Shown: piece after piece, positions 3,723-34,155 of the stretch | Layout: every line of letters starts with the position of its first letter | How positions within the stretch are numbered: the first letter of the stretch is position 1 | Virus record (IMG/VR): IMGVR_UViG_3300043543_000123 | Coordinates: 1 to 34,155 of that record | From: a virus | Length of the DNA stretch: 34,155 nt | Direction: 5' to 3' (one strand) | Translations under genes and position numbers: made by a program | The notes under the pieces: model-generated | The model's database searches: none | The model's input: the letters and a program-made list of their open reading frames with translations, nothing else | What the model was told of the DNA's origin: nothing

Positions 3723-3782
3723 TCTTAAATATATTTTTTAATCATTTATTATGCTTTATGTAGTATTATATTATTATATAAT

Positions 3783-4079
3783 ATGTTTTTCACAGTAATA
3801 TATGTTTTGATATATAACAATTCAAAGTTGAAAATGCTTAGAACGATAAGCTTAACAGTTGATTTAATATCGGCATTTGCATATTATTTTGCAATCTATA
3901 TTACGATCTTTAATAACTATATATTATGTTGTTTGTATACCTGTACTAACGTTAATAAAGAATTGTATAACGTATTAAGTATTAAATACTTAAATATGCT
4001 TTCTTATATTATTCAGTCTATTATAGATGTATCTTTAAATAGTGTTAAAGCCTTGAAGTTAAAATTTCGAATTGTTTAA
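3783..4079 (+). CDS. Doubtful 98-residue hydrophobic frame
   Basis: An open frame of 98 codons with one or two possible membrane segments (around residues 22-50, rich in I, F, Y, A). Against it: no ribosome-binding site precedes the ATG, codons starting with G are scarce compared with the neighbouring genes, and C-ending codons are more common than elsewhere. For it: a stop-free run this long is not very likely by chance in such AT-rich DNA. It may be a small membrane protein or simply non-coding sequence. No family is recognised. Confidence 0.2.
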   Translation: MFFTVIYVLIYNNSKLKMLRTISLTVDLISAFAYYFAIYITIFNNYILCCLYTCTNVNKELYNVLSIKYLNMLSYIIQSIIDVSLNSVKALKLKFRIV

Positions 4080-8191: not shown

Positions 8192-8755
8192 ATGATAAAA
8201 AGAATATTGGGTTTCGATGTATCAAGTACAACTATAGGATACTGTACATTGGAATTAGATGAAAAAACAAATAATATTATATTTGTAAATTGTAATTTCA
8301 TTAAACCAATTAAAAAAGGTTCAATAATTGAACGAATAGTAGATACTAGGAATAAATTACAGAAAATTATTGAATCAATAGAACCTGATTATATTGTAAT
8401 TGAAGATATTATAAAATTCATGAAAGGTAATAGTACTGCTCAAACTATTATAACACTAACTACGTTTAATAGAATGATTTGTCTGTTATCTTATGATTAT
8501 CTAGGTAAATCTCCAAAATTATTTAATGTTATGTCTATTAGACATGGTATAAAAATAGATAAAATTTTGCCAAAAAAAGAACAAATACCAGAACTTGTAT
8601 CTTATCATTTAGGAATTACATTTCCGTTTAAATATAATAAATTTGGTAAAATTAAAAATGAAAGCTATGATATGGCTGACGCAATTGCTGTTGCCCTTTA
8701 TTATGCTTTTATTTTATCTAAAAAAATAAAGGTGAAAAGAAATGAATTTATCTGA
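8192..8755 (+). CDS. ruvC: RuvC-like Holliday junction resolvase
   Basis: RNase H-fold endonuclease expected to resolve branched DNA before packaging. The 187 residues show the RuvC acid set: D9 in LGFDVSSTTIGY, E71 in YIVIEDII, and D160 with D163 in YDMADAIAVAL. The length is close to bacterial RuvC. The reading frame overlaps the DnaJ start by 14 bases, so the two are co-translated. Transcription probably starts in the gap after the SSB terminator. The fold and catalytic residues are clear; junction resolution is inferred from family and context. Confidence 0.88.
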   Translation: MIKRILGFDVSSTTIGYCTLELDEKTNNIIFVNCNFIKPIKKGSIIERIVDTRNKLQKIIESIEPDYIVIEDIIKFMKGNSTAQTIITLTTFNRMICLLSYDYLGKSPKLFNVMSIRHGIKIDKILPKKEQIPELVSYHLGITFPFKYNKFGKIKNESYDMADAIAVALYYAFILSKKIKVKRNEFI

Positions 8756-9728
8756 TGCTTATAAAACTCTTGGATTATCTAAAGATGCTTCCCCAGAAGA
8801 AGCAAAAAAAAGATATAGAGAATTGACTAAAAAATATCATCCAGATGTAAATAAAGAACCTGATGCTGAAGAAAAATTTAAAAAAATAAATGAAGCTTAT
8901 GAAATAATTAAATCTGGAAAAGATGATACTGTTATTGATCAACATGGTCAATGGGCATATCAAGATTTTATTAATATTTCAGATATTTTTAATATAAACA
9001 ATATAAGAAGAAAACAATCAAAAGGTGTTAGATATGAAACAGACATATCATTACATACTACAATATCATTTAAGGAATCTGTTTTAGGTTGTAAAAAGAA
9101 TTTTACTTATAAAAGAAAACTAAAGTGTGATTTATGTGGAGGTGATGGTTCAGCACCAATCCATAATGGATGTACACAATGTAATGGTACCGGATTTATT
9201 ACATCTAGACATGGTAATATGATTAGCCAATCAACATGTAATAAATGTATGGGAAGACAACAAACCGAGGATTGTAAAAAGTGTAATACTACAGGTTTTT
9301 TGGAAGTTGATACATCTATTTCTATTTCTATTCCTGCTGGTATTTTGGATGGTCAAATATTAAGATTACAACATATGGGAAATTACGCAGGTTATATAAA
9401 TAATATGTTTAATGAAACAGACATATATACAAATGCAAATTTGTTAGTTAATGTTGAAAAAATACCAGGACTTCGTCTTGAAAATCAAGACGTAGTATCA
9501 ATGATTAACATTTCTCTATTAGAAGCATTAGAAGGATGCACAAAATCAATTGAAACTATAGATGGCAATGTTGATATATCCATTCCACAAAAAACTAAAA
9601 ATAAAGATGAAGTTATATTACCAAATTTAGGAGTAAATAGGAAAGGAAATCATCGCGTTATAATAAATATAGAGTATCCTTCAAATATAGATAATTTAAT
9701 TAGTTACTTAAAAGGTGAAACTGTATAA
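8742..9728 (+). CDS. dnaJ: DnaJ (Hsp40) co-chaperone
   Basis: J-domain protein that would stimulate the ATPase of a DnaK-type Hsp70, here probably the host's since none is present in the window. Residues 1-60 are a J-domain with the essential HPD at 33-35. Four C-x2-C zinc repeats follow (129-132, 144-147, 166-169, 178-181); the third has lost the usual G-x-G (reads CNKCMGRQ). The C-terminal substrate-binding part extends to residue 328. The Gly/Phe-rich linker of classical DnaJ is replaced by an Ile/Asn-rich stretch (about 65-95). It overlaps the resolvase gene upstream, and its stop overlaps the next start (TAATG). Its place among replication genes suggests complex assembly or disassembly at the fork, as lambda uses host DnaJ. 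Confidence 0.93.
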   Translation: MNLSDAYKTLGLSKDASPEEAKKRYRELTKKYHPDVNKEPDAEEKFKKINEAYEIIKSGKDDTVIDQHGQWAYQDFINISDIFNINNIRRKQSKGVRYETDISLHTTISFKESVLGCKKNFTYKRKLKCDLCGGDGSAPIHNGCTQCNGTGFITSRHGNMISQSTCNKCMGRQQTEDCKKCNTTGFLEVDTSISISIPAGILDGQILRLQHMGNYAGYINNMFNETDIYTNANLLVNVEKIPGLRLENQDVVSMINISLLEALEGCTKSIETIDGNVDISIPQKTKNKDEVILPNLGVNRKGNHRVIINIEYPSNIDNLISYLKGETV

Positions 9729-10054
9729 TGGGTATAATAATCAATTGTCTTACTTGTAAGAAAAGTACAGATCCAATATTGGATAAAATTACTAATAAAG
9801 TATATTGTTCTGTTTGTGATACTGAAATATCAGTCAGTCACTTTGTTAAAGTTCAACTTAAGGATTTAAAACAATATAGAAATAAAAAAAGATCGTTTGC
9901 CGTTAAATGTGTGAACTGTAATAATGAAATAACACCTGTACAAATAGACAATGATATTGTATGCGGGGCTTGCAATAAACCGTTATCAAATATTACTGCT
10001 ATTTTTAAAAAAATGTTAATTGAAAATTTAAATAAATTAAAAGAAGATATGTAA
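9728..10054 (+). CDS. Double zinc-ribbon protein, possible detached primase zinc module
   Basis: A 108-residue protein made of two C4 zinc ribbons: C7-x2-C10 with C27-x2-C30, and C61-x2-C64 with C79-x2-C82, joined by a basic linker. It overlaps dnaJ (TAATG) and is directly followed, with no gap, by a primase that lacks a zinc domain. Bacterial DnaG needs an N-terminal zinc module for template recognition, so this protein may supply that module in trans. That role is inference; other nucleic-acid-binding roles are possible. Confidence 0.75.
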   Translation: MGIIINCLTCKKSTDPILDKITNKVYCSVCDTEISVSHFVKVQLKDLKQYRNKKRSFAVKCVNCNNEITPVQIDNDIVCGACNKPLSNITAIFKKMLIENLNKLKEDM

Positions 10055-18964: not shown

Positions 18965-19723
18965 ATGAGATTAAAAGATTTATTAAATATAATGCAAAAT
19001 ATTGCAAAAGAAAAATTAATATCACCACCAATGATATGTGGTGGAACTCCACGAGATAAATTATTAGGTCGTTTAGATATAGTTTCTGATTTGGATATTA
19101 CAACTGGCGATAAAACTGTTAGTTATTTAGCAAAAGAATTATCTATAATTTTATCAAAAAAATATAATATTATAACTAAGACAATGGATGATGGACATTC
19201 ATCTATTTTTATAGGAAATCTAAAACTTGATTTTTCTTCTAATTTTAATATTCCAAATATAGATAAAATATTGTATAATATCGGAATTAAAGATCCAACA
19301 AGTATGCAGAAAGAATTATATAGTAGAGATTTTACATGTAACGCATTATTAATGTCTTTAGATTTAAAGAATATTTATGATATACTTGGTCGTGGAATAG
19401 AGGATATTAAAAATAAAAAAATATCTACATGTTTAGATCCTTCTATTACTCTTACAGTTAATAAAAATAGAGTTATAAGATCTATTTATCTATCAGCAAA
19501 GTTAGATTTTGATATTGATTTAAATATTGTTAATTGGGTTTCTAAAAATCCAGAATCTATAAGATTTGCTTCGGAAAAATCTATGTCAGAAAAATTAAAT
19601 AGGGCTATGGAATATAATCCAGAAAGAACATTATATTGGTTAAATAAAATGAATGTGTGGAATTATATTCCTATTACTGAATCTTTATACCCATATTATA
19701 TTAAACATGTTAAAGGTAAATAA
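18965..19723 (+). CDS. tRNA CCA-adding enzyme/poly(A) polymerase-like nucleotidyltransferase
   Basis: Class II nucleotidyltransferase of the DNA polymerase beta superfamily. Such enzymes add CCA, or part of it, to tRNA 3' ends, or add poly(A). Motifs run in family order: G26-G27-x2-R30-D31-x-LLG with D42-x-D44 (metal-binding), a third acid at D89 (LKLDF), RDFTCNA (121-127), LGRGIEDIKNKKIST (141-155), and NRVIRSIYLSAKL (168-180). At 252 residues it is much shorter than the usual 350-450, lacking most of the tail domain. It may maintain phage or host tRNA ends or have a changed substrate. It sits, oddly, among virion genes. The next ATG overlaps its stop (TAATG). Confidence 0.88.
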   Translation: MRLKDLLNIMQNIAKEKLISPPMICGGTPRDKLLGRLDIVSDLDITTGDKTVSYLAKELSIILSKKYNIITKTMDDGHSSIFIGNLKLDFSSNFNIPNIDKILYNIGIKDPTSMQKELYSRDFTCNALLMSLDLKNIYDILGRGIEDIKNKKISTCLDPSITLTVNKNRVIRSIYLSAKLDFDIDLNIVNWVSKNPESIRFASEKSMSEKLNRAMEYNPERTLYWLNKMNVWNYIPITESLYPYYIKHVKGK

Positions 19724-26093: not shown

Positions 26094-27293
26094 ATGAATA
26101 AAATAGCTCAGAGAAGAAGTCTGCTCAGTAAATTGCGTGAAAAATTAGATATTGGTGGTCATGCTGCTGAAATGTTTAGTCCTACATTTGCTAAAATTAT
26201 GGAAGATCTAAATAATATTGATGATTCTATTAGAGAAATATTATTAGAATCTGATTTAAAAGGGTTACTTGCAGATGCCCGTTCTAATTTTAATCGTCGA
26301 GAATATATGTTATCAGTTTCAAAATTAAAAGATTTTCATACAATATTAGATAAAATTTATAAGATTCTTAGTAATTTTAAAGCAGATGTTTCTAGTGTTC
26401 ATGAAGAATTTTTATTTAAAGATTTAGATGAAGAAACAAAACAAAGTTTGCTTGGATTAAAATCAAAATTTGATACAACTGCATCTGTATCTAATATCTT
26501 GTTTAAAGAAGCAGGAATTTTAGATTGGTGGTATACTATTACTACTGATCGTGGTAAAGCTATGAGGGCTTGGGAAAAAAGATATCCTGATAAAATGAGA
26601 AAATTAAAATCTCAAACAGATTTATTAATTTCTAGGTCTGAGCAGCTTTTTGATCTACTATTAAAAGAATTAAAAGATATGTCTTGGGCCCGCGCCAAAA
26701 GAAAAGTTGAAGACTATTTAAAATCATCTGAAAAATTTATTAAAAAATATGAAGAATATAATAAACAATTTAAACAATATTATGTAGATAATATTAAAAA
26801 TTTTGTTGAAAAATTACAACTAGAAACATCTAAAAAAGTTGTAACTGATGACGATGAAGGTAAACAATTAATTTCTTTGCCTAAGACAGAACCTACTAAG
26901 CCAAAGATAACTACCGAACAGGCTAAACAAGAAGCTTTGAGTAAGTTAGACACTATTTATGGTCCTGATACAGAAACTGCTAAAAAAAGGCGCCAGAAAG
27001 CTGAATTAAGAAAAGAATTAGAGTATGCCGAACAACAGAAAAAAAAGCAACTTGCAGAGGAAAGTGCAAAAAATACAGCAGATAAAGATAAAGAAAAAGA
27101 TAAAGATAACGATAAAAATGTAAAATCATCAAAATCTTCTCATCAGAGATTTCTAAATACTTTAGAGATATTAGCAAATGAACATCCTATAATTTTAGCT
27201 AAAGAAATATATAAATACGCTAAATATATAGAAAATACAGACAAACAAACTAGTTTAAAACTTTTTAAAATTGTTGATGGTATTATAAAGTAA
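26094..27293 (+). CDS. Large helical protein of unknown function (399 aa)
   Basis: Preceded by GGAG. It is almost wholly helical. Residues 1-135 include a short aromatic turn later marked by ILDWWYTITTDRGKAMRAWE (about 143-162). Long coiled-coil stretches follow (165-250), then a Pro/Lys/Thr linker, a very charged low-complexity region (KDKEKDKDNDKN, about 335-346) and a compact C-terminal helix pair (from about 352). It could be a scaffold, internal head or tape-like protein; no family is recognised. The next gene's ATG overlaps its stop (TAATG). Confidence 0.78.
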   Translation: MNKIAQRRSLLSKLREKLDIGGHAAEMFSPTFAKIMEDLNNIDDSIREILLESDLKGLLADARSNFNRREYMLSVSKLKDFHTILDKIYKILSNFKADVSSVHEEFLFKDLDEETKQSLLGLKSKFDTTASVSNILFKEAGILDWWYTITTDRGKAMRAWEKRYPDKMRKLKSQTDLLISRSEQLFDLLLKELKDMSWARAKRKVEDYLKSSEKFIKKYEEYNKQFKQYYVDNIKNFVEKLQLETSKKVVTDDDEGKQLISLPKTEPTKPKITTEQAKQEALSKLDTIYGPDTETAKKRRQKAELRKELEYAEQQKKKQLAEESAKNTADKDKEKDKDNDKNVKSSKSSHQRFLNTLEILANEHPIILAKEIYKYAKYIENTDKQTSLKLFKIVDGIIK

Positions 27294-28063
27294 TGGGTCA
27301 AAGAGTTCCACGTATTAGAACAGAAGTCTCTGAATCAGAACTGGTGAAAGCATTAATTAGTGCTTGGCAGAAACTTTTTGGTTCTATGCCAACTAAAGAA
27401 CAAATAGCTATGCTATTGGCGCAAAATGCTTTGGAAACTGGGCATAGAAAAAGTATGTGGAACTACAATATTGGTAATGTAACTACTGATGGCAAAGGAA
27501 AATACAATTATTTTGATGATCTTACAACAAATGAACAAATTTCTCCAGGTAAATGGAAGAAAATGAATTTGAAGTATCGTGCTTTTAATACTTTAGATGA
27601 GGGTGCGTTAGATTATATTAAATTTTTGAAAAATAATTATGCCACTGCGTGGCAGCATATAATAAATCCAAATCCAGAAGAATATTCTAAAGCATTAAAA
27701 AAGGCCGGATATTATACTGCAGATGAAATTCCATATACAAAAAATATGGTTAGTTTATTTTCACATTTTAGTAAGTCGCCTGAATATGATAAAGCAAAAT
27801 CTGGAATTACAGAAGAATCAAACGTGATGGGAAATAAAGATTCTATATCTAATAAATCTAATTTTATTATGAAAATAAATGACTTGTTAGATAAGTTAAT
27901 GGTATCATTATCATCGTTAGAAAAATATAATATTGTTAAGAAACAAAAATTAAATATTAATACTTTATCATATATAGGTAGGGCGTATAAAAATAAAAAA
28001 ATTGCTAGGAAAAATTTTATTAAAATAATGGATAAAATATGGTATCCGAACAAGAATGTTTAG
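27293..28063 (+). CDS. Glucosaminidase-type cell-wall hydrolase
   Basis: Likely peptidoglycan hydrolase (endolysin or virion-associated lysin) of the FlgJ/LytD glucosaminidase family. The core AMLLAQNALETGHRKSMWNY then NIGNV places the catalytic Glu at E48. The matching late motif is KAGYYTADEIPYTKNM (about 137-152). Residues about 165-256 form a Lys/Asn-rich, mostly helical extension. No signal peptide is visible, so export would need a holin or virion delivery; no holin was recognised in the window. The start overlaps the previous stop (TAATG), and the end overlaps the start of an interrupted gene by 25 bases. Confidence 0.85.
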   Translation: MGQRVPRIRTEVSESELVKALISAWQKLFGSMPTKEQIAMLLAQNALETGHRKSMWNYNIGNVTTDGKGKYNYFDDLTTNEQISPGKWKKMNLKYRAFNTLDEGALDYIKFLKNNYATAWQHIINPNPEEYSKALKKAGYYTADEIPYTKNMVSLFSHFSKSPEYDKAKSGITEESNVMGNKDSISNKSNFIMKINDLLDKLMVSLSSLEKYNIVKKQKLNINTLSYIGRAYKNKKIARKNFIKIMDKIWYPNKNV

Positions 28064-28401
28064 ATTTGGCGTCATAATTAAGTGGTAAAGAACATACTTT
28101 TGCAGAATCCATTGCCAAATTATTTACAGTAAAATTAATTGAATTATATGTTGGTGATTCATATGAGAATATTACTTTAGATCGGCGTTCTTCACAATAT
28201 CCTACAGTGTTTTGTGGTAAAGTAGTTGGAGCATATTAAGAATGTTTAATTATAAATTCTGTTTATGTTAAAGAAAAACAAATTACATTTGGTAAAATAA
28301 TATTCATTAATGAAAGATCTATTAAAGCTTTAAGTGAAGTTGATGTAAAAGGTAAATTACAAGAATTATTTTTTTGGGTAGTTCCGATACAGTTAGGGTA
28401 A
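28039..28401 (+). pseudogene. Gene interrupted by two in-frame TAA codons
   Basis: One reading frame runs from ATG 28039 to TAA 28399-28401 (120 codons), broken only by TAA at 28075-28077 and at 28237-28239. The pieces between keep protein-like composition and codon use: LSGKEHTFAESIAKLF, ELYVGDSYENITLD, VFCGKVVGAY, then ECLIINSVYVKEKQITFG and SIKALSEVDVKGKLQELF. The frame is unbroken otherwise, so damage would be two point changes (for example from CAA, AAA or GAA), not indels. It may be a young pseudogene, a read-through gene or contain sequence errors. No family is recognised. It fills most of the 361-base gap after the lysin gene. Confidence 0.65.
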
Positions 28402-28424
28402 TAAAAAAAATTGGTTGGTAAATA

Positions 28425-29108
28425 ATGAATGAAAATTATATTTATAAAATCGCTTATATTAAAAAATTGCCAGGCAATAAATGGAGAGTTATTTCAGAAA
28501 AAGGAAAAAATTTAGGAACATATGATTCAAAAGAAGAGGCAGAAAAGCGATTAAAACAAATTGAAATGTTTAAACATATGAAAAAAAAGAAGGCCTCTGT
28601 TATTGATTTAACAGATGTAGATAATTTTAGTCTATCTGCAATTATGAGAAAAATGAGAAAAGAATGTTCTAATGAACAGATATTAGATTTTCTTAAAATT
28701 TATAAAAATTATTTTGATGATGCTATTAAAAGGGGATTGGAAAATCCAGAAAAATTATCTTTATCAAAATCATTGATAGATTTTAATAAAAGTAATCCAA
28801 TAAAAATAAATAAAAATGTAATTAAAACTGCAGCTATTACAGAGCTTGGAAATCCTGCTCAAGTAGGTCAATATTTAGCTAATATTATTAAATTTATATT
28901 AAGAAGGATATCTGAAAAAAATCGTGGGAAATCAATTTTAAATCTTAAAAGTAAATTATATAATTTAAATGTTAATGAAATTGCTTCCAAGCAAATGCCA
29001 GCATCATCGGCACTTGGACAATCTATTACTTTAGTTAAACATATTTTATTTAATCATGATCCTAAATATGTTAAAGAAGTTATTGATAACATAATAATAA
29101 ACTTATAA
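28425..29108 (+). CDS. Hypothetical protein with N-terminal GKNLGTY-type motif (227 aa)
   Basis: Residues 10-50 (KKLPGNKWRVISEKGKNLGT, then YDSKEEAEKRLKQIEMFKH) match a short module common in phage and bacterial proteins of unknown role, recognised by W-R-V-x-S-x-K-G-K-x-LG followed by T-x-EEA-x-KRL-x-QIE. The rest is helical, with an Ala/Pro-containing segment (ASKQMPASSALGQS). Its stop overlaps the phosphatase start (TAATG). The start ATG has only a weak upstream site (TTGGTTGG). Function unknown. Confidence 0.8.
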   Translation: MNENYIYKIAYIKKLPGNKWRVISEKGKNLGTYDSKEEAEKRLKQIEMFKHMKKKKASVIDLTDVDNFSLSAIMRKMRKECSNEQILDFLKIYKNYFDDAIKRGLENPEKLSLSKSLIDFNKSNPIKINKNVIKTAAITELGNPAQVGQYLANIIKFILRRISEKNRGKSILNLKSKLYNLNVNEIASKQMPASSALGQSITLVKHILFNHDPKYVKEVIDNIIINL

Positions 29109-29842
29109 TGATAAAACGATTTAGAAAAGTAACAAATAATTTGTATAGAGGCGGTGCTCCATCAGTAAAAGATGTAGTTAAGCTTAATAAATTATTTGGT
29201 ATACAAAAAATTGTAAGTTTAGATGCTTCTGCAGGTGAAAAAATACATAATATATGCAAAATGTTAAACATAGAACATATTATTATTCCTTTAGATGGAT
29301 CTAGAAAAAGTTTATTTAATTTATTTTCTTATGATTTAAAAGAATTATTGGATAATGGTGTTCCTACATTTGTACATTGTCAAGAAGGCAAAGATAGAAC
29401 TGGTTTTGTTATAGCATTATTTAAATGTAAATATCTAAATGTAGATCCTTCATATGCTATTCAAGAGGCGGAAGATTTAGGATTTGGTAAAGGAGTATCT
29501 CCAACTGTTATTAATTTATATAAAAAAATAATTAATTCAAATGCAGACAGAAATAATTCTGATATTGTATCAAATAAAAGAGAGTATATACAAGATGAAA
29601 AATCATCTGCTTTAGATAGAGCAGATAGGGGTTCTTTTGCTCCTTATCTAGATAAGACTAGGCAATATCCATACGATTCGGTATATCAATATCAAAATAG
29701 ACAGGGAGATACTAGAGATAGTTGCAATGAAAAATATTATGTAAAAACTACACATATTCCGTTAGTTGGATTGTATGATAATACTTCTGGGATAAGAGGG
29801 GTTGGACCAGTAGAAATTGGTGGCGGTTTTGTTGGAATGTAA
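29108..29842 (+). CDS. Protein tyrosine/dual-specificity phosphatase-like protein
   Basis: Cysteine phosphatase expected to remove phosphate from Tyr (or Ser/Thr, or a non-protein substrate). The signature VHCQEGKDRTG gives the catalytic C91 and R97 (C-x5-R). The upstream region (NNLYRGGAPS, then IQKIVSLDAS) matches the N-terminal part of such phosphatases, and D63 in PLDGS could be near the general acid position. The fold ends about residue 145. A 100-residue C-terminal extension follows, rich in Tyr, Asp and Arg (DKTRQYPYDSVYQYQNRQGD) and ending with a Gly-rich tail (GPVEIGGGFVGM); it may be a virion-binding or substrate tail. It follows the previous gene with a TAATG overlap. Confidence 0.88.
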   Translation: MIKRFRKVTNNLYRGGAPSVKDVVKLNKLFGIQKIVSLDASAGEKIHNICKMLNIEHIIIPLDGSRKSLFNLFSYDLKELLDNGVPTFVHCQEGKDRTGFVIALFKCKYLNVDPSYAIQEAEDLGFGKGVSPTVINLYKKIINSNADRNNSDIVSNKREYIQDEKSSALDRADRGSFAPYLDKTRQYPYDSVYQYQNRQGDTRDSCNEKYYVKTTHIPLVGLYDNTSGIRGVGPVEIGGGFVGM

Positions 29843-29874: not shown

Positions 29875-29910
29875 TAGAAAATATTGATGAGTCTATTGCT
29901 AATAGATAAA

Positions 29911-29935
29911 AAGCTTACACTTATACAGTAAGCTT
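29911..29935. terminator. Stem-loop AAGCTTAC/GTAAGCTT
   Basis: A perfect 8-bp stem with a 9-base loop, 69 bases after the phosphatase stop, flanked by A runs on both sides on this strand. It is probably a terminator-like or processing hairpin; the U run reads only on the opposite strand, so function is uncertain. Confidence 0.35.
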
Positions 29936-30093
29936 AAAATTAATATTTCAAAAATAATGATTAAAAATAGTTTGTTATTTAACAGGAATTAATAATGGAG
30001 ATAATTCATGTATCATTTTTATATATAGTTTTACTATTATCATAATCAAGATATCAAATTTTTTGTATAATACTGTAAATATAATACTTGTAT

Positions 30094-30882: not shown

Positions 30883-31044
30883 ATGTTTATTAAACATGGT
30901 GATGGTAAAATAATTTCAGTTTTTAAAGAAGAAGATATTGACGAACAACAAAAAACAGCAATTAATGAAGCCGAAAGTGAAATAAAAAAAGAATCATATA
31001 TAGATCATAAAGATCTTAAAAGTAAAGAACAGAGGTCTAATTAA
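30883..31044 (+). CDS. Small protein (53 aa) coupled to the prohead protease
   Basis: An ATG at 30883 with AAGGA at 30872-30876 (six bases away) opens a 53-codon frame ending TAATG, which overlaps the protease start. The protein begins MFIKHGDGKIISVFKEEDID and continues charged and helical (AESEIKKESYIDHKD). Codon use matches the neighbours. It is likely a real small gene: the spacing and coupling are strong. No function is known; a role in head assembly is only suggested by position. Confidence 0.7.
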   Translation: MFIKHGDGKIISVFKEEDIDEQQKTAINEAESEIKKESYIDHKDLKSKEQRSN

Positions 31045-34000
31045 TGCAATATGGATTTATTAAATTAGGTGAATGGCTAGAAGCTAGCAGAGTTGAAGAT
31101 TTTTCCTCAGTAGCCCCAATTATTGATGATCTTGTTATTCAAGAACATTTTAAGAAGATAGCCGCAGGTTTGAAAACAATAGCTCCAAAAGCAGAGGATT
31201 TTTTATATTTTTCTGCTGTAATGATGCATGCTGCCGAAGCTAGCGCACTTAATCCAGATGGAACACCAAAATTAACAGCCACTGGTGAGCCAGTTAAAGT
31301 TGGTTGGATTAAAGATAAAGGATCTTGGCGTTGGACTACAAATGATAACTCTATTAGACCATATAAAAATTCTAATGGAGACATTTTTCCAGAAGAAGAA
31401 TTAATAAAAGCACATAGAAAATGGGTTGGTAAACCTCTTTGTGTCGATCATAAATCTGATTCTGTAGATCATGTAAGAGGTTTTATAGTTGATACTTATT
31501 ATGATCGTAATTTAAAGCGTGTAGTTGCTTTATGTGCACTTGATAAACATAATTATCCTGAATTAGCTAGAAAAGTAGCAACAGGTTATTCAACATGTGT
31601 TTCTATGGGTACTGCAGTAGGTCAAGCTATTTGTTCTGATTGTGGTCAAGTAGCTAGAACTGAAAAAGATTTTTGTAATCATATGCGCAATAAAACATGT
31701 TATGGTGAAATTAATATTGATTTAAGTCCAATTGAATTATCAATTGTTGTTAATGGGGCAGATCCTCAGGCCAAAATTAAACACATTATTGCTGCAGCTA
31801 ATAATTTAAATAATTATCTTTCTTTAAAAGAAAAAGAATTAAACAAACTATCAGTTAATAATAATGCATTTGAATTAATTAATATTAGAAAAGATTTAGA
31901 TGACACTATAACAAAGTTGGCTAAATTGGAAGAAATTATATTAGAAGAAAAATTACAAAAAGATACTAATGATTTAGCATTAAATCAAACGGCTAGTACA
32001 GCAACGATGCAAGAAACTGATGTATCTAGCACAGATTTTAATATAGCTCCGCCAGCTCAAAGATTAGCATCTAAAGAAAAAGATGCTTTAATTAAAGAAT
32101 TTCAAGCCATTGCAACCTCATTAGAGGCAAAGGTTGCTGACATGAAAAAAAATTTGGATAAGTTATCAAATAATAATATTTTAAATAAAGAGGAACATAT
32201 GTCTGAATCAAAGGATAATTTAAATAAACAAGCATTTTATCAAGGAACAGAAGAGCCTACTCCAGGTCAAGCTAAATATACTAAAGATCCATTAAATGAA
32301 AAACTTCGTACTGATGGAGATAAACACATGAATCTTAATCCTAAAGATATTGGAGAAGTTGATGAAATTTTCCCTGGAGATCTAGAAAAGAAAAAAATGC
32401 TGGCTAGGGCTCAGGCTGAAGAACGCGCAATGCGTAGGCAATATGCCATATCTAAAGCAAAAGAAGCTTTGGAAAAAAAGTCTTGGTTTCAAGGTGGCGG
32501 TGGCGTTAATGAACCAACTCCTGGTAAAACAAAATATACACCTGATAAAATGAATGAAGATTTGCGTGAAAAATCTGATAAGCAAATGGTTGGCAAAAAA
32601 CCTTTCCCAGGTGTTGGAGATGTAGATGATATGTATCCGAATGATAGAAAAGTTAAAGAACCACTTAAGAGAGCTTCATTAAGGGCACGATTCGTTAAGG
32701 CTGCTAATAAAGATGGCACCCAAAATCTTGGTGATAGTGCGTGGGAAGTTTATTTGGGTGACGAATTATTACTTACTGCTTCTGTATCTGATCTTTCAGG
32801 TCAACGTGTCGAATTACTATATGATACTATTGCCACAAAAGATTTTGGTAGCAAATTAATTGAAAAGATAAAAGTGTTTGGTGCTGATAAAGTTGCTAAA
32901 ATGTACAAAATTGCACAAGATGTGGCTCCAGGTACTGCAGCACAAAACGCAGCTCCAGCACAAAACGCAGTTCCAGCACAAGTCACACCTCCAAATCCCA
33001 ATGTAGTTCCAGCCCCAGATGCTGTTCAGACACCTGATGCAACTCAAACATCAAGTACTGATGCAACTACAGATGCAGGTTCAGCAAAAGGTGATCTAAA
33101 AGAAACAGTTAAAGATTTAATGAATAAGACAGTAGATGTAGTATCTGATCTTAAAGAATCAGTTGATGCATTAATTGGTGAGCAATCTGAAATGGGTGAT
33201 TTTGGAGAGTTGGGCAAATCTGCTTCAGATACCAATACTGCTTTAAATAAGATGAGAGTTGAACTTAATGGCGCTCTTATTGATGCTATGAAAGAAACAA
33301 TTGCAGAATTAGAAGATCATCATGAAGAATTAAAGATGATTTATGCAATGTATGATAAAGGCACAATTAGTTCGTCAAATGATGAATTTGTTAAATCTAT
33401 TGTTGAAGACGCTATAACTGACGCAAAAACTTCACTTGCTGACGCTTTTAAATTAATGAGTGCGTTTGTTAAATATGCCCGTGGTACTGAAGCTATTGTA
33501 AAGCGTGCCTCATTAGAGGCAGATTTAAATAAATTAGCAGAATCAAATATGGAATTAGAAGAATCAGATTTAGATGATTTAGAGCGTGATAATAATGGGG
33601 AATTAATGGATATGATAGAGTCTACAGATACAGATCTATCTGATCTCAAAAAAGAAATTGATTATGTAGACGATTCATCATCTGTTGATTCATCTTCTTA
33701 TGATTCATCATCTGTTGATTCATCTTCTTATGATTCATCATCTGTTGATTCATCTTCTTATGATTCATCATCCGTTGATGATTCTTGTGATGAACAATCT
33801 GCAGATATGGTAGCTGTAGAAACACCATCTGGTAAAAAAGTAACAGTTCCACAAGGTTCTAAGGTTTCTGAAGCTTCATTTGATTTACAAACAAAAGAAG
33901 GCAGGGCATTATATAGAGCTAAATTAGCATCTGAAATGTTAGAAACCAGCATTCATTTAAATGAAGCTCATCCAAAAGGTGGGTGTACTACTGAGTTAGA

Positions 34001-34155
34001 TGTTAAGCCAAGTGGTGATTTAGCTAAAGTTGAAGATCTTAATGAACAACATGATGCTATGATGTATGTTGCAACTGCTCCTCCAAAAGTACGTAAAGAA
34101 GCAGAAGCAATTCAACAATTAATTGTTGAAGGTAAGCTTGATCCAAATGAAGTAG
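31044..34155 (+). CDS. Prohead protease fused to a long scaffold-like region (partial)
   Basis: One frame stays open for 1037 codons to the window end, so the C-terminus is missing. The start overlaps the 53-aa gene (TAATG), with AGAGG at 31031-31035. Residues about 1-110 form an N-terminal domain. Residues about 115-245 look like a T4 gp21/HK97-type prohead serine protease: WVGKPLCVDHKSD with H136, then GYSTCVSMGTAV with S187. A zinc-finger-like insert follows (C197-x2-C200, C211-x-H213), as in some large-phage proteases. From about 250 it is Glu/Lys/Ala-rich coiled coil and linkers like a scaffold core. This region holds two copies of a 50-residue module (398-446, 482-534), an Ala/Pro linker (about 635-680) and a Ser/Asp decapeptide repeat (877-912). 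The protease would cut the scaffold, perhaps including its own tail, during head maturation. Confidence 0.82.
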   Translation, partial: MQYGFIKLGEWLEASRVEDFSSVAPIIDDLVIQEHFKKIAAGLKTIAPKAEDFLYFSAVMMHAAEASALNPDGTPKLTATGEPVKVGWIKDKGSWRWTTNDNSIRPYKNSNGDIFPEEELIKAHRKWVGKPLCVDHKSDSVDHVRGFIVDTYYDRNLKRVVALCALDKHNYPELARKVATGYSTCVSMGTAVGQAICSDCGQVARTEKDFCNHMRNKTCYGEINIDLSPIELSIVVNGADPQAKIKHIIAAANNLNNYLSLKEKELNKLSVNNNAFELINIRKDLDDTITKLAKLEEIILEEKLQKDTNDLALNQTASTATMQETDVSSTDFNIAPPAQRLASKEKDALIKEFQAIATSLEAKVADMKKNLDKLSNNNILNKEEHMSESKDNLNKQAFYQGTEEPTPGQAKYTKDPLNEKLRTDGDKHMNLNPKDIGEVDEIFPGDLEKKKMLARAQAEERAMRRQYAISKAKEALEKKSWFQGGGGVNEPTPGKTKYTPDKMNEDLREKSDKQMVGKKPFPGVGDVDDMYPNDRKVKEPLKRASLRARFVKAANKDGTQNLGDSAWEVYLGDELLLTASVSDLSGQRVELLYDTIATKDFGSKLIEKIKVFGADKVAKMYKIAQDVAPGTAAQNAAPAQNAVPAQVTPPNPNVVPAPDAVQTPDATQTSSTDATTDAGSAKGDLKETVKDLMNKTVDVVSDLKESVDALIGEQSEMGDFGELGKSASDTNTALNKMRVELNGALIDAMKETIAELEDHHEELKMIYAMYDKGTISSSNDEFVKSIVEDAITDAKTSLADAFKLMSAFVKYARGTEAIVKRASLEADLNKLAESNMELEESDLDDLERDNNGELMDMIESTDTDLSDLKKEIDYVDDSSSVDSSSYDSSSVDSSSYDSSSVDSSSYDSSSVDDSCDEQSADMVAVETPSGKKVTVPQGSKVSEASFDLQTKEGRALYRAKLASEMLETSIHLNEAHPKGGCTTELDVKPSGDLAKVEDLNEQHDAMMYVATAPPKVRKEAEAIQQLIVEGKLDPNEV
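32235..32645 (+). repeat. Duplicated ~50-residue module in the scaffold region
   Basis: Copies at 32235-32381 and 32487-32645 encode the shared pattern FxQG, EPTPG, KYT-x-D, NE-x-LR, DK-x-M, G-x-VD and P-x-D. The DNA has diverged but the protein pattern is clear. This may be a cleavage- or interaction-module repeat. Confidence 0.75.
33672..33778 (+). repeat. 30-base tandem repeat, three copies plus a part, coding DSSSVDSSSY
   Basis: Three near-identical 30-base units (33672, 33702, 33732) and a partial fourth (from 33762, with one TCT to TCC change) encode a Ser/Asp decapeptide in frame. The near-perfect DNA identity implies recent expansion. The product would be a flexible acidic linker. 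Confidence 0.92.

Follow-up and report, generated by a model that had tools for sequence, protein, structure and literature searches.

The window, by which we mean the whole stretch of DNA analysed here, is a 34-kb virus record that consists of a single contig. As noted in the sequence-only reading, an interrupted protein-like frame starts within the 3' end of the lysin gene, at ATG 28039. The resemblance to a gene is far beyond chance. Searched against proteins, the read-through translation has a single close match, 88% identical (E 5e-63), in a related phage, the 112.6-kb IMG/VR phage IMGVR_UViG_3300035183_000460 (hereafter G001). This viral contig of 112,562 bases aligns colinearly with almost all of the window, at about 97% identity. 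The same translation also matches 64 distinct outgroup proteins. The corresponding locus of G001 holds an intact 127-aa open reading frame (ORF) with Glu and Lys at the positions of the two TAA codons of the window. The features at the locus are as follows.

27293–28063, plus strand: lysin gene (glucosaminidase domain), upstream, overlapping and intact; PF01832 (E 1.1e-7), phrog_3513 endolysin (E 2.1e-13), open frame kept in G001.
28039–28425, plus strand: probable pseudogene of a conserved 127-aa phage protein (116–142 aa in relatives); intact orthologue L002:5001-5384 in G001, 77 full-length homologous loci, nonsynonymous rate at the neutral level.
28075–28077, plus strand: premature TAA at codon 13; Glu in the relative, the stop being absent from all homologues.
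28237–28239, plus strand: premature TAA at codon 67; Lys in the relative, K or R in 59/64 distinct outgroup homologues.
28369–28370 (approximate), plus strand: two-base insertion in a T run, causing a frameshift; from pairwise alignment with G001.
28399–28404, plus strand: TAATAA within the shifted stretch, where a single extra base in an A run (at about 28403) restores the register; from alignment and translation.
28425–29108, plus strand: p227, intact downstream gene of unassigned function and conserved neighbour; at 76/77 family loci, intact in both phages.
29108–29842, plus strand: dual-specificity/tyrosine phosphatase-like gene, downstream and intact; PF03162 (E 3.6e-9), at 70/77 family loci.

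As for the lesions themselves, the two in-frame TAA codons at 28075 and 28237 are present just as first described. The accompanying claim that they are the only interruptions, with no indel, does not hold, since the window carries a +2 insertion at about 28369 and a +1 insertion at about 28403 relative to G001. The last 10 or so codons of the frame as originally drawn, which lie between these insertions, are thus out of register, and its presumed end at 28399–28401 is a TAA of the shifted stretch, immediately adjoined by another (28402–28404). Because the two insertions together restore the register, the original stop is 28423–28425 rather than 28399–28401. This ancestral stop overlaps the ATG of the next gene at 28425, in the same way as in G001. 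Between the two premature stops, the frame has no ATG or TTG and offers a GTG at codon 57 as its sole potential start, and scanning the frame beyond the second stop for ATG, TTG and GTG revealed none. Re-initiation would therefore yield nothing useful.

The frame belongs to a conserved family with a characteristic genomic setting. A search with an alignment of homologues brought the family to 77 loci (G001 included), all of which are open over the matched stretch as ORFs of 116–142 aa with no internal stop. Since some of these contigs are near-duplicates, no single locus among the 77 is an independent proof. The full-length homologues that the sequence-only reading had proposed to look for are thus found: all 77 loci span both stop positions and none ends at the first. 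Homologues have E, Q, K and other residues at codon 13, and K or R at codon 67 in 59/64 distinct outgroup sequences. The absence of internal stops in full-length homologues implies that the joined translation corresponds to one conserved gene, broken only in the window. Distant homologues in other phage contigs are sited between a lysin and the p227-phosphatase pair, a lysin similar to that of the window being detected upstream at 31/77 loci. Neither the frame nor its intact orthologue has a match in Pfam, PHROGs, NCBIfam or among annotated phages. When genome contigs were searched, the single orthologue gave no match and the family alignment gave one, in a metagenome-assembled genome contig labelled Thioploca sp., which is counted among the 77. 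A further relative is A0A6J5RSB7, an uncharacterised protein from an uncultured Caudovirales phage in BFVD, which shares 46% identity with the intact orthologue and is predicted to adopt the same fold along its whole length (Foldseek E 4.5e-16), but carries no assigned function. Neither the window nor G001 contains a second copy of the broken gene, although the missing part of the window's own genome may hold one.

We measured coding constraint over codons 10–110 (about 300 sites), which lie outside the overlap with the lysin gene, by comparing the window with G001. There are 11 nonsynonymous changes in this interval (stops counted) and no synonymous one. The resulting pN of 0.046 is the highest of all genes compared, against 0.012 in 31 other genes of the window (P 2e-4). 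When the synonymous rate of these 31 genes (0.061) is used as a neutral proxy, the pN of the frame is not different from it (P 0.42). Over the whole gene, one synonymous change stands against 15 others, whereas synonymous changes are in the majority elsewhere (Fisher P 1e-4). Taken alone, the 16 substitutions fit the neutral expectation (P 0.11 for synonymous and P 0.24 for nonsense changes), and the lack of any departure agrees with neutral decay. Changes that could be polarised with outgroups fall mostly on the branch of the window (six, versus two on the other), and those of the window lineage include near-invariant residues at codons 49 (61/64 identical), 56 (62/64) and 103 (54/64). In total, 4/51 conserved sites are altered in the broken frame, as opposed to 0/44, 1/92 and 1/103 in three neighbouring genes. 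The neighbouring genes are still open in both phages, and no other aligned gene of the window is broken while its counterpart in G001 is intact. At the sequence level, the frame has the pattern of a gene freed from selection within an otherwise maintained genome.

Could the frame nonetheless be functional, its two TAA codons being read through thanks to a suppressor tRNA or a local recoding context, as the sequence-only reading had suggested among its options? A single protein is readable on both sides of each stop, and in-frame stops with conserved dN/dS are reported in bacterial genes (PMC7918605). However, a suppressed gene should stay constrained, and constraint is not maintained across these stops: the nonsynonymous rate is at the neutral level and near-invariant residues have been lost. 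Moreover, the two TAA stand in place of different residues, a frameshift that brings two further TAA affects the 3' end as well, and no homologue has a stop. The window is a fragment from which most of the phage genome is missing, so that a tRNA gene elsewhere is formally possible, but ARAGORN and Rfam searches found no tRNA gene in the window or in the whole 112.6 kb of G001. Read-through is accordingly very unlikely. Reassignment of TAA in an alternative code was also considered and is rejected, in line with the earlier exclusion of genome-wide recoding: TAA, TAG and TGA all terminate other genes of the window, TAA is the normal and commonest stop, ending most of them, and the two TAA of the frame correspond to Glu and Lys in G001.

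An intact gene disfigured by sequencing or assembly errors, which would reduce the two stops to artefacts, has in its favour that the lesions are known from one assembled contig and that both insertions fall within homopolymer runs, where errors are common. Errors might account for these insertions considered by themselves, but would leave the stops and the drift in place. About a dozen nonsynonymous changes exist beyond the stops and insertions, several at near-invariant sites and accumulated at the rate of neutral drift, while adjacent genes of that contig remain under constraint and lack this excess. Since errors would spread beyond one gene, an excess limited to a single gene makes this explanation improbable, and the same goes for the earlier option of just two erroneous bases. 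The idea that two or three distinct short genes make up the stretch, or that it is open by chance, is hardly credible: nothing speaks for it except the stops themselves, whereas all homologues cross both positions as one ORF and no useful start codon exists past the first stop.

Together, these findings strongly support the recent pseudogene that was among the options of the sequence-only reading, through the intact homologues, the lost constraint and the small frameshifts. We consider it highly probable (roughly 0.93) that 28039–28425 is a recently inactivated gene, i.e. a unitary pseudogene, in neutral decay in the genome of an uncultivated tailed phage that is large and rich in AT. The ancestral gene encoded a protein of about 127 aa; its ATG overlapped the lysin gene at the end of the latter, and the gene order was lysin, this gene, p227 and phosphatase. 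Function was lost in the lineage of the window once it had diverged from G001 (synonymous divergence about 6%), two sense codons becoming TAA and the 3' end gaining small insertions in homopolymer runs. Translation is now expected to end after 12 codons, with no useful start downstream, and we infer that no functional product is made from the broken frame. Other unitary phage pseudogenes, which are formerly conserved genes inactivated by point mutation, share its early stop codons, its small frameshifts, its substitution rate at the neutral level and the presence elsewhere of intact orthologues with conserved gene order, and no categorical difference sets it apart from them. It is an ordinary recent phage pseudogene, and this is its first description from this genome. 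What might have been a recoding signal is thus resolved as ordinary gene decay, and one close relative together with the substitution rate suffices to tell one from the other. The broken and intact versions, in near-identical phages, amount to a natural knock-out pair.

A by-product of this analysis, which is its more interesting part, albeit moderately so, is a conserved and unnamed phage family with a predicted Sm/Hfq-like fold. A first AlphaFold2 model of the intact protein used 10 sequences and was of low quality (pLDDT 69); it was superseded by a confident model made with 59 family sequences (pLDDT 86.8, pTM 0.77). The latter consists of two N-terminal helices, five strands (residues 33–47, 50–66, 69–78, 81–91 and 95–100) forming a small barrel, and a C-terminal helix. 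Both Foldseek and VIA-align 2 retrieve chiefly Sm, LSm and Hfq proteins, and Sm and Hfq chains occupy most of the top 50 structural matches. For example, 2qtx, an archaeal Hfq-like protein, has a Z of 7.3 and an RMSD of 1.6 Å over 58 residues; a Z of about 7 is middling, and in Foldseek comparisons with the PDB the E-values exceed 0.001. As in the Sm/LSm/Hfq fold, an N-terminal helix is followed by a five-stranded barrel. In contrast to these proteins, the first hairpin of the model is extended, and the model has two further helices, an extra one at the N-terminus and one at the C-terminus. Sequence searches returned no Sm/Hfq match in Pfam or NCBIfam and no Sm or Hfq chain among the PDB sequence matches, Sm families often being too divergent for such detection; a penicillinase repressor among the latter (E 0.14–0.18) was judged a chance match. 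Agreement among the top matches, together with the strand order, makes a Sm-like barrel likely for the intact family. Judging from the model, the most plausible role of the protein would be that of an RNA-binding ring protein, to which we give about an even chance. The odds are balanced on whether the broken gene belongs to a so far undescribed group of phage RNA-binding proteins of the Sm/Hfq type, encoded beside lysin and phosphatase genes in many large uncultivated phages and recently dispensed with in the lineage of the window. If true, this would raise the question of why this lineage could do without a gene that almost all its relatives retain.

The comparison of the two phages also brought several minor observations. 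G001 encodes a transfer-messenger RNA at L040:1893-2245 (G001 1893–2245, outside the window), which was detected with RF00023 (90.4 bits) and missed by ARAGORN. Its tag frame is good, reading ANDNGISQLALAA followed by a stop, and G001 is otherwise without detected tRNA genes. G001 may hold a broken small gene of its own, since the counterpart (L037 12095-12429) of an open 108-aa ORF of the window (9728–10054) is frameshifted by one base in an A run. Downstream of the phosphatase gene, in the gap before the gene that follows it, some 190 bases of the window (29889–30074) lack a counterpart in G001. Past the DNA polymerase gene, 3761–3925 does not align with G001, and the 98-aa ORF 3783–4079 covering this segment, which is not open in G001, is probably not a gene. 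Within the window, a 30-base tandem repeat (33672–33779; 3.6 copies, 98% match) lies inside the long ORF 31044–34154. Finally, the window contains a phage gene with a DnaJ co-chaperone architecture (8742–9728) and another with a poly(A) polymerase/CCA-adding head domain (18965–19723).
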